Virus record (IMG/VR): IMGVR_UViG_3300027782_000300
Coordinates: 1 to 27,249 of that record
Length of the DNA stretch: 27,249 nt
Origin: a virus
Strand: one strand, 5' to 3'
A program made the translations under genes and the position numbers. Shown piece by piece: positions 9,994 through 27,249 of this stretch; position 1 is the first letter of the stretch; each line of letters begins with the position of its first letter. The notes below the pieces were generated by a model that did not search any database, was not told where the DNA came from, and worked only from the letters and a program-made list of their open reading frames with translations.

Positions 9994-10188
9994 ATGGGAA
10001 TATTAGACAACCTAGAAAACGCATGGGATAAACTTGATCCTCAATACGAAAACCTTGCTCAAAAAGTATTTTCAGAAACTGTTTGCTCTGACTGCTCTTG
10101 TGGACAAGAGTCTAAGCTAATGCCTATAACTGATAACATGGGTAGAGAAATTTTTTGGGGAGATCTAGGAAGACCTACTGACGCTTAA
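9994..10188 (+). CDS. 64-residue protein with a CxxCxC motif
   Basis: An acidic helical N-terminus (MGILDNLENAWDKLDPQYEN) is followed by VCSDCSCGQE near residues 30-39 and a Gly-rich end. It is probably co-transcribed with the micropeptide. Its stop shares the TTAA tetramer with the stop of the convergent methyltransferase gene, and there is no terminator between them. Confidence 0.7.
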   Translation: MGILDNLENAWDKLDPQYENLAQKVFSETVCSDCSCGQESKLMPITDNMGREIFWGDLGRPTDA

Positions 10189-10847
10189 GGTGCTTCGTAT
10201 CTTCCATAATACTTATAGATCTCATATGGAATAACAGTAGAATCAACCCACCAGTCTTCATGACCTATCTTTGCAATTAAAGAATATCCAAGGTTGTTTA
10301 AAATCTCTCTTTGAGCATCACGCAATGAGGCATTCTTATAGTTGATAATATATTCGTGTTCAAAAGAAATCACGGTAAAGCGATATCTAGACAATGGCAG
10401 GGCAATTAAACCATTCAATGGTGTTCCAATAGGAGCAATAGGTCTTCCACCTTTATCCATAGGAGATTCAATATCAATTTGAAGGTAATCAATTTGTTTT
10501 GGAAAATTGTTTTCTTCAAAGTATTTTAAATAATCAAAAGTTGTAGCGTCTTGCATTAAACAAGGGTTTTTGCGAACAGAGTTATATTCATCAACATTTC
10601 TTTGATCTAAGTCAAAACCAACACCTATCCAGTCATATTCGTTTTCCATTTTATAGGTTGTGTTTCCACTTATAGGACCAGCTGATCCCATTTCTACATA
10701 ATATCCATTTTTCTTATATTCTAAGATATCTAAAGCAAACATATCCGAAGCTCGCATAACATTTCGTTTATCTCGCATATGTTTTTCAAATTCTGGTCGA
10801 GTCATAGTGTTTATTTCATTAATACGTTCAGTGATACGTTGATCCAT
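10185..10847 (-). CDS. SAM-dependent methyltransferase (FkbM-like)
   Basis: This 220-residue protein has a Rossmann-type methyltransferase pattern. Motif I is YYVEMGSAGPISGNTTY (about 49-65), a strand ending in Asp is at GVGFDLD (75-81), an acidic MQD at 98-100, and IDYLQIDIE at 119-127 matches the FkbM-type post-II segment. The C-terminus ends WWVDSTVIPYEIYKYY, as in surface-sugar O-methyltransferases. In phages such genes often sit next to fibre or glycan genes. The substrate is unknown; sugar, peptide or small-molecule methylation are all possible. It overlaps the oxygenase gene by 20 nt (ATG at 10847), so expression is coupled. Confidence 0.75.
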   Translation of the reverse strand: MDQRITERINEINTMTRPEFEKHMRDKRNVMRASDMFALDILEYKKNGYYVEMGSAGPISGNTTYKMENEYDWIGVGFDLDQRNVDEYNSVRKNPCLMQDATTFDYLKYFEENNFPKQIDYLQIDIESPMDKGGRPIAPIGTPLNGLIALPLSRYRFTVISFEHEYIINYKNASLRDAQREILNNLGYSLIAKIGHEDWWVDSTVIPYEIYKYYGRYEAP

Positions 10848-11418
10848 CGTGTTCCTCTATTTCGCTAAAGAGTTCTTTATTTAAAAGAACTGGACTTTCT
10901 TTTGATCCTCTTACAAATGATGTTGAAAAATATCGGGGGAGATCATCAAGAACCGCCAATGACTTATGCAGGATATTACCACCATGTAAAACTAAAGACC
11001 TAGCTTTAGGCTTATGTACAATACCTAACTCTGAGTACTCTAGTTCTCCTCCAGCATACTCGTCATTATAATATAAACATATACCATACCTGATGTGATA
11101 TGGCTCATCCTTTAGCCAATAGTCTCTATGTTCCTGAATAGCTGCTCCTTCTCTATACCGTTGAAGTGCAACTGAGCCTACATACAATAGTGATTCAAAT
11201 AGGTTTTGAATTTGATTGTCTATATCTTTAAATACCTGCGGTTTGTCACCGTTATATTGTTTACCGTAAAAAAATCCATTTTTATAATCATCATTAACTG
11301 ATAACCACCATTGCTCTTCATCCAAGCCTGATGCAAAATCTAAAACCTCTTTTTGTTGATCTACTGTAATAAAGTCTTCAATCTCATATAGATCTGGAGA
11401 TAGCCTATTGATTTTCAT
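10828..11418 (-). CDS. 2-oxoglutarate/Fe(II) oxygenase, prolyl-4-hydroxylase-like
   Basis: This 196-residue protein has the double-stranded beta-helix signatures of the family. QEHRDYW gives the HxD iron ligands (H97, D99), GGELEY follows at 123-128, and ILHKSL supplies the distal iron His (H151). PRYFSTSF supplies the Arg (R162) that binds 2-oxoglutarate; spacing is normal. The family couples 2-oxoglutarate decarboxylation to hydroxylation, often of protein proline. The start is the ATG at 11418 with GGAAAG upstream; an in-frame TTG at 11433 lies inside the upstream gene and is less likely. Nearby collagen-like and Pro-Phe-repeat fibre genes make fibre prolines a possible substrate, which is inference. 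Confidence 0.88.
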   Translation of the reverse strand: MKINRLSPDLYEIEDFITVDQQKEVLDFASGLDEEQWWLSVNDDYKNGFFYGKQYNGDKPQVFKDIDNQIQNLFESLLYVGSVALQRYREGAAIQEHRDYWLKDEPYHIRYGICLYYNDEYAGGELEYSELGIVHKPKARSLVLHGGNILHKSLAVLDDLPRYFSTSFVRGSKESPVLLNKELFSEIEEHDGSTYH

Positions 11419-11419
11419 A

Positions 11420-11620
11420 TTACCACTTTCCAATTGGACATTTAGCTTGTCGTAACGTAGATTTTAATTTCATAAAACATCCACACTTTTTGCACTTAGC
11501 TAAAGTTTTATTAAAATACGGACATTCGTTACAAATTGCTAATCTATGTTCAATTAGTTCTCTATCACTCCTTGGTTGCGAAGGATCAAATAAGTCACTA
11601 AATTTTACATCATCAGACAT
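11420..11620 (-). CDS. Cys-rich zinc-binding 66-residue protein, leaderless
   Basis: It starts MSDDVKFSDLFDPSQPRSDR. The second half has CNECPYFN, CKKCGCFM and CPIGKW, with a conserved-looking KLKSTLRQAKCP; this type of small Cys protein is common beside phage methyltransferase and structural genes. I choose the ATG at 11620 rather than the upstream in-frame start at 11656, because TATAAT (11627-11632) lies 6 nt before it and would be inside the longer form. Its stop at 11420 is one base before the oxygenase start, so the three genes form an operon. Confidence 0.8.
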   Translation of the reverse strand: MSDDVKFSDLFDPSQPRSDRELIEHRLAICNECPYFNKTLAKCKKCGCFMKLKSTLRQAKCPIGKW

Positions 11621-12040: not shown

Positions 12041-12161
12041 CTACTATATATATAATATATAAGATATATAAATATAAACCTTTAAAGATAGTTCTTTTTT
12101 CTTATATATATTTAGTATACACTATTACAGTCCTGATTTCTTAATTTTTATACCTTGACAA

Positions 12162-12183: not shown

Positions 12184-12248
12184 CTTTATAACTTTTTGTT
12201 ATCTATAATTATAACGTTTTGTTACTTTAATATACATGATGTCCGATA

Positions 12249-12812: not shown

Positions 12813-13088
12813 ATGACTTTACATGCCCACACAACCCTTAGTAACACAACTGCTACTCGCCTAAGTCCAAACGGACTTCACTCTGGAATGGATATTACAA
12901 TTCAAAACATACACGAATCTGCTTACGTATACGTTGGTGGAGAAGGTGTAACAGCATCTGGTTATGGATATCGTATTGCTCCAGGTGCAGCATTTTCTAT
13001 TGAACTACCTGGACAAGATGCACTTTATGCAATCTCAACTGTTAATAGTTCAAAGGTTGCAATTCTACAAACAGGGCTTGAAGGATAA
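12813..13088 (+). CDS. Small beta-rich virion-type protein, 91 residues
   Basis: TLSNTTATRLSPNGLHSGMD, ITIQNIHESAYVYVGGEGVT and GYRIAPGAAFSIELPGQDAL form a beta-sandwich pattern that I know from small phage proteins beside tail-fibre genes. Its position, leaderless start and overlap of its stop with the next ATG (TAATG) suggest co-expression with the following fibre. A structural role is inferred. Confidence 0.7.
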   Translation: MTLHAHTTLSNTTATRLSPNGLHSGMDITIQNIHESAYVYVGGEGVTASGYGYRIAPGAAFSIELPGQDALYAISTVNSSKVAILQTGLEG

Positions 13089-14974
13089 TGGCACGGTTTA
13101 CTACAACAGGTGGTAGCGGAGAAGGTACACCAGGTGCCCCAGGAGCAGATGGTGCAGATGGTACTTCATTCTTATGGTCTGATGCATTTGATGGCGGAAC
13201 AACATATCCTTTAAACTATGTAGTTTCATATCAAGGTTCTTCATATATTAAAGTTGCAACTGGAGGAAGTTTTCCACTTCCAACCGATTCCGACTATTGG
13301 AGTTTATTAGCACAAAAAGGTAAAGATTCATTTTTTCTTGGAACATGGAATAGCGAAACCGAATTCCTTGCACTATATCAAGGCGGTCCAGTAGGTTTAG
13401 CAGTTGGTGATTGGTGGGCGTTTGTAAAAGACAATACTAATTCAAATAAAATTTATGTAGTTCGTGAAGATCCTAATTCTGCAACTGGTTGGGTTATTGA
13501 TGATAACGAAAGTTTTACATTACCAGCAGGTGCTGACGGAGCAGACGGTGCCCCAGGTGCTGATTTTGGAATTTATTATTTAGGAAACTACAATCCATCT
13601 TCTGGCTATGTACCAGATATTGCGGTAGTACGAGGTTCAGATGGGCAGTTATATCTTGCTAAAGCAAGTGGACAGCTTAATGACCCAGTTGGAAACACCG
13701 CACAATGGGAAGTTTGGATTCCTAAAGGTGCAGACGGTGCCCCAGGTGCAGACGGAGCAGATGGTAATGATGGCGCCCCAGGTGCAGACGGTGCCCCAGG
13801 AGCAGATGCTCTATGGGAATATCTTGGAGAGTATAGCGGAGGAATAACCTACGGTGCTGGAGCAGTTGTTACATATGATGGACAACTTTGGTACAGAAAT
13901 GTTTATACCTCTGCTGGATATGTTCCTGGTGTTGGCAATACCTACTGGGACTTGCTTGCAGCCAAGGGTGCAGACGGAAATAATGGTACATCTTTTACAT
14001 CCCGTGGTGCATGGACAGATTCAGAAAATTATGCAATAAACGATATTGTAACCTTTGAAGGTTCTGCATATGTTTGTATAGTTGCAGTTACTGCTGGAAC
14101 AGATGTTGCACCTTATCCACAAAACATAGGTGCATATTGGAACTTGCTTGTATCTGGTTCAACAGCAGATACTGGACAAATTACATTTCTAGGCGTATAC
14201 ATTATAGGCGCTGGCGGTGGCTCTGGCGATGGTGCTGGTAATGGAACTATTAAATTAATGCCAGATGAAGATCTTGTTCAGCAGCAATATCATGAAGATC
14301 AGTATTTAATAATTGATCCAACTTCTCCAAATCATATTCATATTCGTGCAGGAGGAGTTCAAGATGCTTCTACTGCAGACCTATTTCTTGGAGCAGAAAA
14401 AAACAATGTAATAGTTTCTGACAGTTACAACAATGTTAAAATTAATTCAACACCAGATTCTATTGTAAATACCTATGGAAATTCTAATCAAGCAAGTAAC
14501 ACAGAATTTATGGTTGCATCTGGTACAGACATTATTGTTGGGGATACTGTGCATTTATACACAGGCGGAGACACTTATATAGTAACTGCAGTTACACCAG
14601 AATATCCTTATGCAGGCCTAATGACAGTTGTTGCTGACGGATTATCGTTTATAACTGGAGAAGCCTACACATTTACTCGTGAACAATATTCTAATACATG
14701 GATATTTGAAGAAGATGGAACACTTTACGGACCAGCAATGGGTGGTCTTCGTGTAACTGGACTTGAAGCAAACTCAACAAATCCATTCTGGATTTATTCT
14801 GCAGACGATATTGTTTTAAATGCTGTTGGTGGAGAATATATAGGTGCTAACGGAAACGCAGATAATCAAATTGCAACTATTGGTGATTTACCAACGGGAG
14901 CAACAGGAACATTTACTTCTCAAGATAACAAAACAATAACAGTAACTAACGGAATTATTACAAGCATAGTTTAA
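13088..14974 (+). CDS. Tail fibre with collagen-like and carbohydrate-binding repeats
   Basis: This 628-residue protein alternates collagen-like Gly-X-Y runs (GAPGADGADG types at about 14-27, 145-156, 213-238, 292-298) with about four repeats of a chitin-binding-like module. That module has the pattern Y..G..V.Y.GS.Y...........YW.LLA.KG (about 31-75, 158-215, 241-292, 299-357). A Gly-rich hinge near 373-382 leads to a C-terminal receptor-type domain (about 385-628) ending TFTSQDNKTITVTNGIITSIV-like strands. This architecture is typical of trimeric phage fibres that bind cell-surface glycans. The G-A-P/G-A-D repeats put Pro in the X-Y positions, possible targets of the hydroxylase-like enzyme at 10828. 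Confidence 0.85.
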   Translation: MARFTTTGGSGEGTPGAPGADGADGTSFLWSDAFDGGTTYPLNYVVSYQGSSYIKVATGGSFPLPTDSDYWSLLAQKGKDSFFLGTWNSETEFLALYQGGPVGLAVGDWWAFVKDNTNSNKIYVVREDPNSATGWVIDDNESFTLPAGADGADGAPGADFGIYYLGNYNPSSGYVPDIAVVRGSDGQLYLAKASGQLNDPVGNTAQWEVWIPKGADGAPGADGADGNDGAPGADGAPGADALWEYLGEYSGGITYGAGAVVTYDGQLWYRNVYTSAGYVPGVGNTYWDLLAAKGADGNNGTSFTSRGAWTDSENYAINDIVTFEGSAYVCIVAVTAGTDVAPYPQNIGAYWNLLVSGSTADTGQITFLGVYIIGAGGGSGDGAGNGTIKLMPDEDLVQQQYHEDQYLIIDPTSPNHIHIRAGGVQDASTADLFLGAEKNNVIVSDSYNNVKINSTPDSIVNTYGNSNQASNTEFMVASGTDIIVGDTVHLYTGGDTYIVTAVTPEYPYAGLMTVVADGLSFITGEAYTFTREQYSNTWIFEEDGTLYGPAMGGLRVTGLEANSTNPFWIYSADDIVLNAVGGEYIGANGNADNQIATIGDLPTGATGTFTSQDNKTITVTNGIITSIV

Positions 14975-17943: not shown

Positions 17944-19188
17944 GTGCTGGGGTTTATAGGCCGATGGGCAGCATCCAAAGGAATGGTAGCAGTACCAAAC
18001 TTAATTGGTTCATTAAACACAGCAGCACAAACAGCAATTGCAAATAGTGGTTTAACTTTTTCTTCAAGCTCTACAACAAGCACTGGAGATTCTAATTTAG
18101 CAAATAAGGTTGAGTCTCAAACTCCAACTGCAGGAACTCTTGCTGATTATGAGTCTTCTGTTAGCTTTGTTTCTTATTCTTATGTAGCCCCTCCGTTTTT
18201 CCCGTTCTTTCCGTTCTTCCCACCGTTCTTCCCTCCATTCTTCCCACCGTTCTTTGGCCCATCACCGTTCTTCCCTCCATTCTTCCCTCCATTCTTCCCA
18301 CCGTTCTTCCCACCGTTCTTTGCACTTGGCTCAGCTCCATCAGTTCCAACAAATATTAGTGGATCTGATAACTTAAGTCCAGTAGGTGGAACGTTCTCTT
18401 GGACAGCATCAACTGGTACTGGACCTATAACATATGTTTATTCTATAGGCTCAAGTGACCCAGAAGCACCAATTCCAGTAGCATTTGGCGAGATCTCATC
18501 AACATCAGTTACTCTTGCACAGTCTGGAAGTTATAATATTGGAGTACAATCAAAGAACTCATTTGGTACATCAAATGTAGCAAGTAGTGGTTACGTTACT
18601 TTTACCACAAAGCCTGTAGCTCCAACAATTGATAACATTGTATTTAGTAACATAGACAGTACTGGAGCAACTGTAAGTTGGAATTCTACCAATCAAAGAT
18701 CATACAGTATTTCAACTAGCCCTTCCGCATCCTTAAACGGCGCCACAGGTGCCTTTGCTACATCTAGAAGCATGTCTTTTGGAACCCCTGGCACATTGTA
18801 TACTTTCACAATAACTGTTTACTCTGGAGCAAGCCAGACTGGGCTTAGCGCATCAGCCACAGGAAGCTTTACAACTCTTGGCGCATCACCGTTCTTCCCT
18901 CCGTTCTTCCCACCGTTCTTCCCACCGTTCTTTGGCCCATCACCGTTCTTCCCTCCATTCTTCCCTCCATTCTTCCCACCGTTCTTCCCACCGTTCTTTG
19001 GCCCATCACCGTTCTTCCCTCCATTCTTCCCTCCATTCTTCCCTCCATTCTTCCCACCGTTCTTTGGAATAGCGTGTACTCCAGGCACTGACTGTGGATC
19101 GTTCTGTATGTTTACAGAGCAAACATATTATGTTTATACATACAACGCATCTTGTCAGTGTGTGCTTGTTGATTACTACTTCTGTTAA
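17944..19188 (+). CDS. PASTA/FN3 protein with long PFFP repeats
   Basis: A 414-residue protein. Residues about 14-80 form a PASTA-like domain (VAVPNLIGSLNTAAQTAIAN, ending VESQTPTAGT), which in the family binds peptidoglycan. Residues 83-126 are a PFFP repeat array, about 130-313 are two fibronectin-III-like domains, and 316-374 are a second array in three blocks separated by GPS. A C-terminal 40 residues has six cysteines. The start is uncertain: GTG at 17944 or ATG at 17983 (MVAVPNLIG), directly at the PASTA domain. The Phe/Pro composition is extreme and has no function known to me. The same module ends the partial gene at 26534. Probably a surface adhesin/fibre. Confidence 0.75.
   Translation: MLGFIGRWAASKGMVAVPNLIGSLNTAAQTAIANSGLTFSSSSTTSTGDSNLANKVESQTPTAGTLADYESSVSFVSYSYVAPPFFPFFPFFPPFFPPFFPPFFGPSPFFPPFFPPFFPPFFPPFFALGSAPSVPTNISGSDNLSPVGGTFSWTASTGTGPITYVYSIGSSDPEAPIPVAFGEISSTSVTLAQSGSYNIGVQSKNSFGTSNVASSGYVTFTTKPVAPTIDNIVFSNIDSTGATVSWNSTNQRSYSISTSPSASLNGATGAFATSRSMSFGTPGTLYTFTITVYSGASQTGLSASATGSFTTLGASPFFPPFFPPFFPPFFGPSPFFPPFFPPFFPPFFPPFFGPSPFFPPFFPPFFPPFFPPFFGIACTPGTDCGSFCMFTEQTYYVYTYNASCQCVLVDYYFC
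18190..18321 (+). repeat. PFFP-coding 12-bp tandem array 1
   Basis: Units of CCRTTCTTCCCW encode PFFP; the coding strand is almost purely pyrimidine. The first units lack one P codon (PFFPFFPFF). Confidence 0.85.
18889..19065 (+). repeat. PFFP-coding 12-bp tandem array 2
   Basis: Three blocks of 4-5 PFFP units are separated by GGCCCATCA (GPS). The DNA of the blocks is nearly identical to array 1 and to the array at 27134. Confidence 0.85.
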
Positions 19189-19193
19189 AAATA

Positions 19194-19202
19194 TGGTACA
19201 AT
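19194..19202 (+). promoter_or_regulatory. Extended -10 promoter with leader
   Basis: TGGTACAAT; unlike its neighbours it is followed by AAGGAGG (19208-19214) and a start at 19222. Confidence 0.5.
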
Positions 19203-19221
19203 GTTACAAGGAGGCTTTAAT

Positions 19222-19605
19222 ATGTTAGATATGGTTGGAAGAGTTAGAGGCACAAACAAATACGCACTTGTTGTTAATAGTGAGATGGCGTGTGAAATTA
19301 GATACCCAGTAGAAGGAACAACAGAAGTAGAAAAAATAACTTCAATCCTTCAAAGTGATCCTAAAATAGTTTTATTTTCTGAAAATCCAGACGAAGCAAA
19401 TATTAATACTTACAATCTTTTAGTTAATGATGAGGTTGTTGGAAAATTTTATTGGCTTAATGATGGAGACACAGTTCCAGATCCAGCAATGATAACAGCA
19501 GCTCTTAAAAGTGATCCAAAAGTCATTGATATTACAAATATTGATCCAAAACCAGAAGCAGGTTGGAATTGGAATGGGTCTATTTTTATTAATCCAAATG
19601 CTTAA
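19222..19605 (+). CDS. 128-residue protein made of two tandem repeats
   Basis: The start is ATG 19222, set by AAGGAGG 7 nt upstream; the ATG at 19201 lies in the -10. Two repeats align: YALVVNSEMACEIRYP...ITSILQSDPKIVLFSENP (about 14-58) and YNLLVNDEVVGKFYW...ITAALKSDPKVIDITNID (about 64-109), followed by a Trp-rich tail GWNWNGSIFINPN. This looks like an internal duplication of a small alpha/beta module. I do not recognise the family; its place downstream of the PFFP gene suggests a virion-related or accessory role. Confidence 0.75.
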   Translation: MLDMVGRVRGTNKYALVVNSEMACEIRYPVEGTTEVEKITSILQSDPKIVLFSENPDEANINTYNLLVNDEVVGKFYWLNDGDTVPDPAMITAALKSDPKVIDITNIDPKPEAGWNWNGSIFINPNA

Positions 19606-24237: not shown

Positions 24238-26502
24238 ATGGCAACTAGAATGCAACAGCGCAGAGGAACTGCAGCTCAATGGATATCTTTAAATAATGGA
24301 GATGGCCCAATTCTCGCTGCTGGCGAAATTGGTTTTGAAACCGATACTGGTCAATTCAAAATTGGTGATGGCATTAGTCACTGGAGCGACCTTTCATATT
24401 TTAAAAACCTTGAAGACCTTGGTGGATCTCTTGACGACTATATTCTTCTTACAGAGAAAGGCGCAGCATCTGGAGTTGCAGAACTCGATGCTACATTTAA
24501 TGTATTAACAAAGACTGGCGTTGTTTTTGAAGGCGCTACAGCAAATGCATTTGAAACAACTTTACAGGTAACAGACCCAACAGCTGATCGGACTATCACT
24601 ATTCCTAATGCTACAGGAACCGTTCTACTTGCTGACGGTAGCGGAAATGTAACAGTATCAGGAGACTTAACAGTATCAGGTATGACTACTATAATTGACA
24701 GTACAGTTCTTAATGTTCAAAATGAAATTAAATTTGAAGGCGATACTGCAAATGCATTTGAAACTAGCATTAAAGTTGTAGACCCTACAGCAGATAGAAC
24801 TATTACATTCCCAGATTCTAGCGGAACCGTTATCCTAGACGGTACAACTCAAACATTAACTAATAAAACAATTAACTTAACTTCAAATACTTTAGCAACT
24901 ACTCTTGCTCAATTAAATACAGCAGTATCAGATGCTGATATTGTTTCACTTGCTGGATCAGAAACACTTACTAATAAAACTTTAACTTCTCCAAATATTA
25001 ACGAAGCCGTTGCTCTTACTGCAACTTCTACAGAACTAAACATCCTTGACGGAGTTACAGTAACTGCAGCACAAATAAATGTTCTTGGAAGCTTAACTGC
25101 TAGCGCATCAGAATTAAATATTCTAGATGGTGCAACTCTTTCTGTTGCAGAGCTTAATATTCTTGATGGAGTAACCGCAACTCCTACAGAAATCAATTAT
25201 TTAAGCGGAGTAACTTCTGCTATTCAAACACAATTAAGTAACAAACAATCAGTTGTAACTGGTGTTTCAGATGTTGAAATTGGTTATCTTGATGGAGTTA
25301 CTTCACCTATTCAGACTCAAATAAATAGCAAACTTTCTTCAGCTACAGCAGCAACTACTTATCAGCCAATAATTGTTGGTGTTTCAGATACTGAAATTGG
25401 ATATTTAGACGGCGTAACTTCATCTATCCAGACTCAACTAAGCGGCAAGCAGGCAATTGTTGCTAATGTTTCAGATGTTGAAATTGGATACTTAGATGGT
25501 GTTACTTCTGCTATTCAAACACAAATGAATGCTAAAGCACCATTAGCCTCACCTACCTTTACAGGCACTGTAACATTGCCTTCTGGCACTGTAACAAGCA
25601 CAATGATTCTTGATGGAACAATTGTAGATGCTGATATTAATGCTTCAGCTGGCATTGCTCAGTCTAAGATATCAGGATTATCAACAAGCCTTGGCCTTAA
25701 GGCAGACCTTGCTTCACCAACATTTACAGGCACAGTAACAATTCCCACAGGAGCATCAATTTCAGGGTTTGCTCCTCTTGCTTCACCAGCACTTACAGGC
25801 ACTCCTACTGCACCAACGGCTGCAGCACTAACTAACACTACACAAGTTGCAACAACTGCCTATGTTCGTGGAGAAATATCAGCACTTGTCAATAGCGCAA
25901 CTTCAACTTTAGACACTCTTGGAGAAATTGCAACCGCTCTTGGAAATGATGCAAACTTATCTACAACACTAACAACTTCAATTGGACTAAAGGCTCCACT
26001 TGCTTCACCAACATTTACAGGAACTGTAACAATTCCTGCAGGTGCAAGCATTTCAGGATTTGCTCCACTTGCATCACCAACATTCACTGGTACAAATAAC
26101 GTAGCAGCACTTACAGCATCAGGATTAATTACAGCCTCTGCTTCAGGTGTAGCATTTACAGACGGTACACAAACAAAGGAAGGCGTTCCTTCACGGACAC
26201 CAATTGTTCAAAAGACAGATTCTTATACACTATCAGCATTAACTGAAAGAGATTCACTAATTGAAGTTTCAAAAGCAACAGCTACAACAATTACAATCCC
26301 TACAAATACAGCAGTAGCATATCCAGTAGGAACATCTATTGATATTCTTCAAACTGGAGCAGGACAAGTAACAATTGCTGGAGACTCTGGAGTAACAGTT
26401 AACTCAACCCCAGGATTAAAGCTAAGAACTCAATGGTCATCTGCAACTCTCTTTAAGAGAGCAACAAATACTTGGGTTGTATTTGGCGATCTAACAGCAT
26501 AA
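24238..26502 (+). CDS. Mtd-N-type long tail fibre, 754 residues
   Basis: Residues 1-60 (MQQRRGTAAQW, LAAGEIGFETDTGQFKIGDG, WSDL) match the N-terminal domain of phage major-tropism-determinant and related fibres, which attaches the fibre to the virion. The shaft holds FEG.TANAFET....DPTADRTIT repeats, TLTNKTLTSPN segments, about nine ELNILDGVT/EIGYLDGVTS-type repeats (about 255-430) and ASPTFTGTVTIP repeats. The C-terminal about 95 residues match the end of 17310 and finish WVVFGDLTA. It is probably the principal long fibre and receptor-binding protein. No reverse transcriptase or template repeat is nearby, so diversity generation is not indicated. Confidence 0.88.
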   Translation: MATRMQQRRGTAAQWISLNNGDGPILAAGEIGFETDTGQFKIGDGISHWSDLSYFKNLEDLGGSLDDYILLTEKGAASGVAELDATFNVLTKTGVVFEGATANAFETTLQVTDPTADRTITIPNATGTVLLADGSGNVTVSGDLTVSGMTTIIDSTVLNVQNEIKFEGDTANAFETSIKVVDPTADRTITFPDSSGTVILDGTTQTLTNKTINLTSNTLATTLAQLNTAVSDADIVSLAGSETLTNKTLTSPNINEAVALTATSTELNILDGVTVTAAQINVLGSLTASASELNILDGATLSVAELNILDGVTATPTEINYLSGVTSAIQTQLSNKQSVVTGVSDVEIGYLDGVTSPIQTQINSKLSSATAATTYQPIIVGVSDTEIGYLDGVTSSIQTQLSGKQAIVANVSDVEIGYLDGVTSAIQTQMNAKAPLASPTFTGTVTLPSGTVTSTMILDGTIVDADINASAGIAQSKISGLSTSLGLKADLASPTFTGTVTIPTGASISGFAPLASPALTGTPTAPTAAALTNTTQVATTAYVRGEISALVNSATSTLDTLGEIATALGNDANLSTTLTTSIGLKAPLASPTFTGTVTIPAGASISGFAPLASPTFTGTNNVAALTASGLITASASGVAFTDGTQTKEGVPSRTPIVQKTDSYTLSALTERDSLIEVSKATATTITIPTNTAVAYPVGTSIDILQTGAGQVTIAGDSGVTVNSTPGLKLRTQWSSATLFKRATNTWVVFGDLTA

Positions 26503-26533: not shown

Positions 26534-27249
26534 ATGGCATCAGGTAAAAAGATTGGAAAGAAGTCACAAGCATCAAATGACTTTTTAGAGCCATTGGCAC
26601 CAACAGGAGCAACAGCAACAGATGTTGGAACTGCAAGAGCCTTTAATAATGGTGCTGCAACAGTATCTTTTTCTTTACCTGCGCTATCTCCAGCAGCAAC
26701 TTCTTATACTGTAACATCTAGTCCTGGAGGATTTACTGGAACTGGATCATCTTCTCCAATTACTGTAGCTGGACTTCAGTCTGCTACTGCATACACATTT
26801 ACCGTAACAGCTACTAATGCTGCGGGAACTTCTCTAGCATCATCAGCATCAGCTTCTATTACCGCAACAACAGTTCCTGCAACCATGGCTGCTCCAACCC
26901 CTACTGCTGGAGTTAATCAAAACTCAATTGCTTTTTCAGCCCCAGCAACTGGTGGAAAAACAATTTCCAGTTATACAGTTACTGGCTCTGATGGCACATC
27001 TGGAACAGGAGCTACTTCTCCAATTGTTATTTCTGATACCGCAGGAACTTCACAAACCTATACAGTTACAGCAACTAATGCTAATGGTACAAGCACTGCT
27101 TCTCCTGCATCAGGATCAATTACAACATTAGCCCCGTTCTTCCCTCCATTTTTTCCACCGTTCTTCCCGTTCTTTCCGTTCTTCCCACCTTTCTTCCCAC
27201 CGTTCTTCCCACCGTTCTTCCCACCTTACTTCCCGTTCTTTCCGTTCTT
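26534..27249 (+). CDS. FN3/PFFP-repeat protein, 3' end missing
   Basis: At least 238 residues, running off the right edge. A basic N-terminus (MASGKKIGKKSQASNDFLEP) precedes two fibronectin-III-like domains (about 25-118 and 119-199). The pattern SYTVTSSPGG, TAYTFTVTATNAAGTS and TYTVTATNANGTST is typical of FN3. A PFFP array begins at about residue 201. It lacks the PASTA domain of 17944 but carries the same FN3-plus-PFFP arrangement. GGGAGATAAAA precedes the ATG. A surface or virion adhesin is likely. Confidence 0.78.
   Translation, partial: MASGKKIGKKSQASNDFLEPLAPTGATATDVGTARAFNNGAATVSFSLPALSPAATSYTVTSSPGGFTGTGSSSPITVAGLQSATAYTFTVTATNAAGTSLASSASASITATTVPATMAAPTPTAGVNQNSIAFSAPATGGKTISSYTVTGSDGTSGTGATSPIVISDTAGTSQTYTVTATNANGTSTASPASGSITTLAPFFPPFFPPFFPFFPFFPPFFPPFFPPFFPPYFPFFPF
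27134..27249 (+). repeat. PFFP-coding 12-bp tandem array 3 (cut by the edge)
   Basis: CCGTTCTTCCC units encode PFFP and PFF, with one variant PPYFPFF. They are nearly identical at the DNA level to the arrays at 18190 and 18889, seven to nine kb away. Confidence 0.85.

Follow-up and report, generated by a model that had tools for sequence, protein, structure and literature searches.

The distal tail fibre adhesins of T-even phages, gp37 and gp38, combine a conserved shaft with an exchangeable distal tip and an adjacent gene that is matched to the tip. Their specificity is reportedly swapped by recombination between conserved motifs. Mimivirus offers another precedent, as it encodes collagen together with its own viral lysyl hydroxylase/glycosyltransferase. 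Viral 2OG oxygenases are also common in cyanophages, with 24 in S-SCSM1 alone, and according to a 2022 paper their viral function had not been specifically investigated (PMC9602691). The locus described here, in which a gene for an FN3-FN3-(PFFP)n protein (gene A) is followed in relatives by a cluster of 2OG-Fe(II) oxygenase genes, would be of a known kind, namely a phage fibre whose tip can be exchanged, combined with modification of a repeat protein by the virus itself, with the pairing of PFFP and oxygenases as a new variant. Many aquatic phages have 2OG-Fe(II) oxygenases without a known substrate, and the PFFP stalk is a candidate substrate that can be tested. We name it as such because the oxygenases are encoded immediately downstream of a Pro-rich, fibre-like gene and are missing from loci with a different repeat.

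As in gp37/gp38, the shaft is conserved, the tip is exchangeable, a neighbouring gene is tip-matched and repeats flank the point of exchange; we draw this as an analogy and claim no sequence relation. Unlike gp37/gp38, the stalk consists of PFFP units, the tips are small and Cys-rich or Hint-like, and an oxygenase cluster is attached. As with Mimivirus collagen, the virus is proposed to provide its own 2OG oxygenase for a repeat-rich structural protein, but here the virus is a phage, the array is PFFP rather than Gly-X-Y, and there are five to seven separate small oxygenases. The cyanophage 2OG-Fe(II) oxygenases likewise belong to PF13640, occur in many copies per phage and have no assigned function (PMC9602691). 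Unlike them, the genes here are clustered in a set order, immediately behind a gene whose product is a candidate substrate.

The PFFP repeat type was unmatched in the cultured-phage collection by BLAST, a search limited by low-complexity filtering, and among 84,980 prokaryote species genomes scanned, only four contigs had in-frame PFFP genes. Uncultured viral contigs held at least 120 PFFP stretches and at least 417 relatives of gene A. We found no description of the PFFP array or its oxygenase coupling in the literature searched, which left most subscription journals outside its scope. FN3 proteins of uncultured Caudovirales phages (BFVD A0A6J5MFV5 and others) resemble the N-terminal domains in fold and in sequence, at no more than 55% identity. 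However, their annotation is FN3 alone, and we found no description of an array, tip or oxygenase coupling for them.

The window, the whole stretch of DNA that was analysed, is a virus contig of 27,249 bases (Table 1). Because gene A is truncated at the contig end, what comes after its array is not visible there. A first-pass annotation had read gene A as an FN3-PFFP gene, and this observation is real: the fn3 match (PF00041; E 9e-9) scores 35.8 bits, above the Pfam gathering cut-off of 25, the array runs from 27134, and the gene holds 10 P[FY]FP motifs vs. no more than 2 when its residues were shuffled 2000 times. In an AlphaFold2 model of a relative that is 89% identical (L143), block pLDDT values across the two FN3-type domains were mostly 85-95. 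The annotation also correctly noted the lack of a PASTA domain, as Pfam reported none in gene A and only a weak match in gene B (E 4e-4, under the cut-off). By contrast, its description of homogeneous 12-bp units was inaccurate, since the gene A array mixes in-frame 12-bp PFFP units with 9-bp PFF units. TRF delimited this array at 27134-27249 and the two of gene B at 18192-18320 and 18889-19067.

Table 1. Features of the window discussed in the text.
Feature	Position	Strand	Basis
Gene A, FN3-FN3-(PFFP)n protein	26534..27249	+	open reading frame, fn3 match; cut by contig end
Two beta-sandwich (FN3-type) domains, approximate limits	26591..27124	+	AlphaFold2 of relative L143; Pfam fn3 on first domain
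Gene A PFFP array, mixed 12- and 9-bp units, truncated	27134..27249	+	TRF, motif count
Fibre gene with Mtd_N domain, just upstream of gene A	24238..26502	+	PF18454 E 9e-13; tail fibre PHROGs
Gene B, PASTA-array-FN3-array-Cys-rich tip	17944..19188	+	translation, Pfam
Gene B array 1	18190..18320	+	TRF
Gene B array 2, with 66-bp higher-order repeat	18889..19067	+	TRF
85-nt identical pair inside gene B	18238..18322 = 18916..19000	+	exact match
Cys-rich C-terminal tip of gene B	19069..19185	+	translation
Small gene directly 3' of gene B tip, candidate tip partner	19201..19605	+	C-terminal GWNWNGSIF motif
2OG-Fe(II) oxygenase-like gene	10828..11433	-	PF13640 weak match; HxD motif H101/D103
FkbM-type methyltransferase-like gene	10185..10847	-	PF05050 E 7e-4, 20.2 bits (cut-off 22.7)

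A fibre gene of the Mtd_N type also precedes gene A in four related contigs (G001, G002, G003 and G121). Terminase, portal, major head protein, tail sheath and baseplate genes mark G001 as a contractile-tailed phage; TerL_ATPase (PF03354) had no match in seven contigs, but PHROGs did find the terminase in G001. Gene A lies within the structural block of G001, and this gene context is the clue to where the protein is located. The product of gene A is most likely a phage virion fibre or decoration protein, and both its virion location and a role in receptor binding are inferred.

Pfam had no match for the tip of gene B, which forms its own cluster among the 53 tip clusters described below, and a single-sequence AlphaFold model of gene B had a mean pLDDT of 37. 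The small gene directly behind it is a candidate tip partner, the association between tips and partners having been measured in the gene A family only. The oxygenase-like gene is the sole one of its 2OG-Fe(II) type in the window. It has the HxD motif, matches PF13640 below the cut-off of 27 (E 9e-5, 23.8 to 25.6 bits), overlaps the methyltransferase-like gene and lies far from gene A, outside any gene A cluster. The best matches of two window proteins were to actinophages at 53-55% identity, which is a lead only as to the host, and a PADLOC scan found nothing.

In relatives, the gene A array is followed by a C-terminus that varies even among close relatives, with 93 tips falling into 53 clusters. 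Tip exchange is evident in pairs such as L158 and L162, which have N-terminal DNA that is 94% alike and homologous flanks but unrelated tips. A conserved N-terminus and conserved flanks around unrelated C-termini are therefore features of the relatives, while the tip of the window's own gene A lies off the contig. Most tips are short (25-50 residues) and Cys-rich, and some are Hint-like or an S74 chaperone; a Pfam scan of ten tips returned only Hint_2, Intein_splicing and Peptidase_S74. Of 65 same-tip pairs, 63 shared a downstream gene family, compared to 5.9 expected and a maximum of 18 in 2000 permutations, a figure that includes phage relatedness. Tip and partner gene together look like an exchange cassette. 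Several of the downstream gene families end in WNG/WDG..F, recalling tail-fibre chaperones, and no Pfam family matched them. In four loci (L058, L178, L180 and L205), Hint-like C-terminal domains ending in HNK directly follow the PFFP array and could possibly be self-processing tips.

These features would fit a fibre whose extended Pro-Phe-Phe-Pro stalk is anchored by the two FN3-type domains and carries an exchangeable tip at its C-terminal end; a small gene matched to the tip adjoins, and tips would be replaced where the array ends. A conserved N-terminus, a repeat stalk, a variable C-terminus and a matched downstream gene are also the layout of a polymorphic-toxin-like system, in which the tip would be a toxin and the coupled small gene an immunity protein, and Hint-like domains among the tips are in keeping with this. 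Still, we consider such a system very improbable, as most tips are Cys-rich peptides of the short length given above, no toxin family appeared among the ten scanned, gene A sits among the structural genes of a contractile-tailed phage, and the WNG/WDG..F ends are reminiscent of fibre chaperones.

The enzymes that could act on such a stalk are encoded nearby. In G001, gene A is followed by five to seven 2OG-Fe(II) oxygenase genes, together with DUF6065, glutathione-peroxidase/TlpA-like (GPX) and SDR genes, and the order of the cluster is common to G001, G121, G002 and G003. Six of the oxygenases (OG1-OG6) match PF13640 above the cut-off and keep the HxD...H iron triad; OG7 has a weak Tet_JBP match only. 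For the one oxygenase tested, the nearest solved structures were procollagen lysyl and prolyl hydroxylases, including LH3. Homologues of OG2, OG3, DUF6065 and GPX, at 27-45% identity, also lie close to the PFFP genes of a further, deeply diverged group of phages (G005, G012 and G022). The nearest relatives of the window's gene A that could be checked (88-90% FN3 identity) have 5-6 oxygenase homologue positions downstream, and we infer that the genome to which the window belongs has its cluster past the right end of the contig.

In place of PFFP, certain orthologues of gene A and of gene B have pentapeptide arrays of the form [YF][SAT]F[TV]P, here called SFTP. This stalk repeat class (L409-L447, L321 and L322) is apparently undescribed so far. 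Both A- and B-type genes with SFTP arrays were found in the same phages, and no locus mixed PFFP with SFTP repeats. Among gene A orthologues with at least 5 kb of downstream sequence, an oxygenase homologue was present within 6 kb downstream in 94 of 95 PFFP-type loci (the exception being L113) vs. 0 of 9 SFTP-type loci. After deduplication at 97% FN3 identity, these counts became 65/66 and 0/6 (Fisher p 4e-8), the SFTP sample being small, with 6 independent loci. The FN3 tree required 4 changes of array type, at least 2 of them on supported branches. After the gene A orthologue, the SFTP contigs G049 and G050 have the gene that in G003 lies beyond the cluster.

PFFP arrays and the oxygenase genes were also closely tied when whole contigs were compared. 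Genes of PF13640 occurred in 46 of 48 PFFP contigs, most of which had 6 or more, compared to 6 of 50 random viral contigs and 4 of 22 SFTP contigs; the 46/48 derive from 47/50 contigs chosen for PFFP or gene A, minus G049 and G050. The two PFFP contigs without a PF13640 match (G011 and G037) have another architecture. Among 81 listed oxygenase genes, 75% lay within 8 kb of a PFFP array, whereas rotation leads one to expect 31% and reached a maximum of 62% in 5000. We also compared G001 with 24 contigs whose major head proteins were 82-99% identical to its own. PFFP was lacking in 22 of them, and 20 of these 22 had no PF13640 gene either. Of the two contigs outside the 22, G121 had PFFP and six PF13640 genes, and G105 had its array at the very end of the contig. 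One control contig without PFFP, G081 (L312), has three PF13640 genes and Gly-X-Y stretches in a nearby gene, perhaps another such substrate.

Because this hydroxylase-like gene set is missing when the stalk repeat differs, the pattern suggests that the PFFP stalk is chemically modified. We lean towards a fibre with a PFFP stalk and an exchangeable tip whose array would be hydroxylated by the oxygenases of the cluster, probably at its prolines. The arrays are without lysine, which makes proline the likeliest target, but Phe may be an alternative, and the oxygenases may also act on a target other than the array. Hydroxylation, like adhesion, is read here from gene content and arrangement, and for the window itself the model would apply by homology. 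Alternatively, ancestry and position alone could tie the cluster to PFFP genes, with the arrays serving as unmodified rigid or sticky spacers and the oxygenases targeting another fibre, the host surface, nucleotides or 2-oxoglutarate levels. Neighbouring genes travel together, so that linkage could suffice to hold them, and the many 2OG oxygenases of cyanophages have been guessed to have a metabolic role (PMC9602691). However, the association follows array chemistry within one orthologous gene across the supported switches described above, and the OG2, OG3, DUF6065 and GPX homologues recur near PFFP genes in the deeply diverged phage set. Linkage alone thus seems to us unlikely, if by no means negligible. 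A broader version of the hydroxylation reading, to which we give even chances, is that of a dedicated transferable module in which the oxygenase set would hydroxylate the PFFP stalks of every fibre on the virion of a given phage, perhaps at several different positions, while SFTP chemistry would need no such set.

The proposed hydroxylation bears on the resemblance between the arrays of genes A and B. The first-pass annotation had called their repeat DNA near-identical and proposed recent copying or gene conversion between the two genes. The arrays do share the same dominant codons, a true likeness, and the median codon distance was 1.11 within contigs vs. 1.66 between contigs, where the within-contig pairs include tandem homologues and near-identical strains. 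Yet the repeat DNA was far from near-identical: the longest exact match between A and B was 29 nt, with ~14% of 24-mers in common, and 44 of 150 array genes from other phages matched A exactly over that length or more. The mutual similarity of A and B ranked only 20th and 38th of 151 array genes by codon use, and 24th and 22nd by shared 24-mers. We therefore consider it highly unlikely that the array of either gene was recently copied from the other. Recent copying is genuine, however, between the two arrays inside gene B, which are identical over 85 nt spanning a non-repeat spacer, and where a 66-bp higher-order repeat reached 97%. We dropped a grouping of loci by shared 60-mers, as it lumped unrelated phages.

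Instead, the codons common to A and B are a habit across the PFFP array family. FF was written as TTCTTC at 79.5% of array sites vs. 10% elsewhere, and CCG preceded Phe in 34% of cases in arrays vs. 6% outside. We rejected the idea that FF codons are generally chosen to avoid slippage, since FF outside the arrays of the same loci was TTTTTT in 48% of cases, and Phe in SFTP arrays was TTT in 88%. Together, these two figures indicate that the TTC habit is peculiar to PFFP arrays; that it avoids T runs inside a long repeat is a guess. If all arrays of a phage are substrates of one shared set of its oxygenases, as we propose, then those arrays would share one chemistry, and A and B would look alike because each phage has one array chemistry tied to one hydroxylase-like enzyme set.

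The annotation had further proposed that gain or loss of units keeps the reading frame, and this was borne out, with the caveat that short-read metagenome assembly may misjudge repeat number. Four pairs of loci, with N-terminal DNA at least 99.8% identical and aligned downstream DNA identical, differed by one clean in-frame array indel (45, 39, 111 and 138 nt), in line with a stalk that would gain or lose units without losing frame. Three of the four indels had a junction overlap of 41-92 nt, which repeat recombination or assembler error would give alike. The 111-nt indel had no junction overlap and a broken unit pattern, so it may be an assembly error.

Elsewhere in the window, a fibre gene at 13088-14974 has collagen-like Gly-X-Y stretches and a CBM5/12 carbohydrate-binding module, and AT-rich tandem repeats (12045-12077 and 12186-12231) lie between the minus-strand genes and the first fibre genes.
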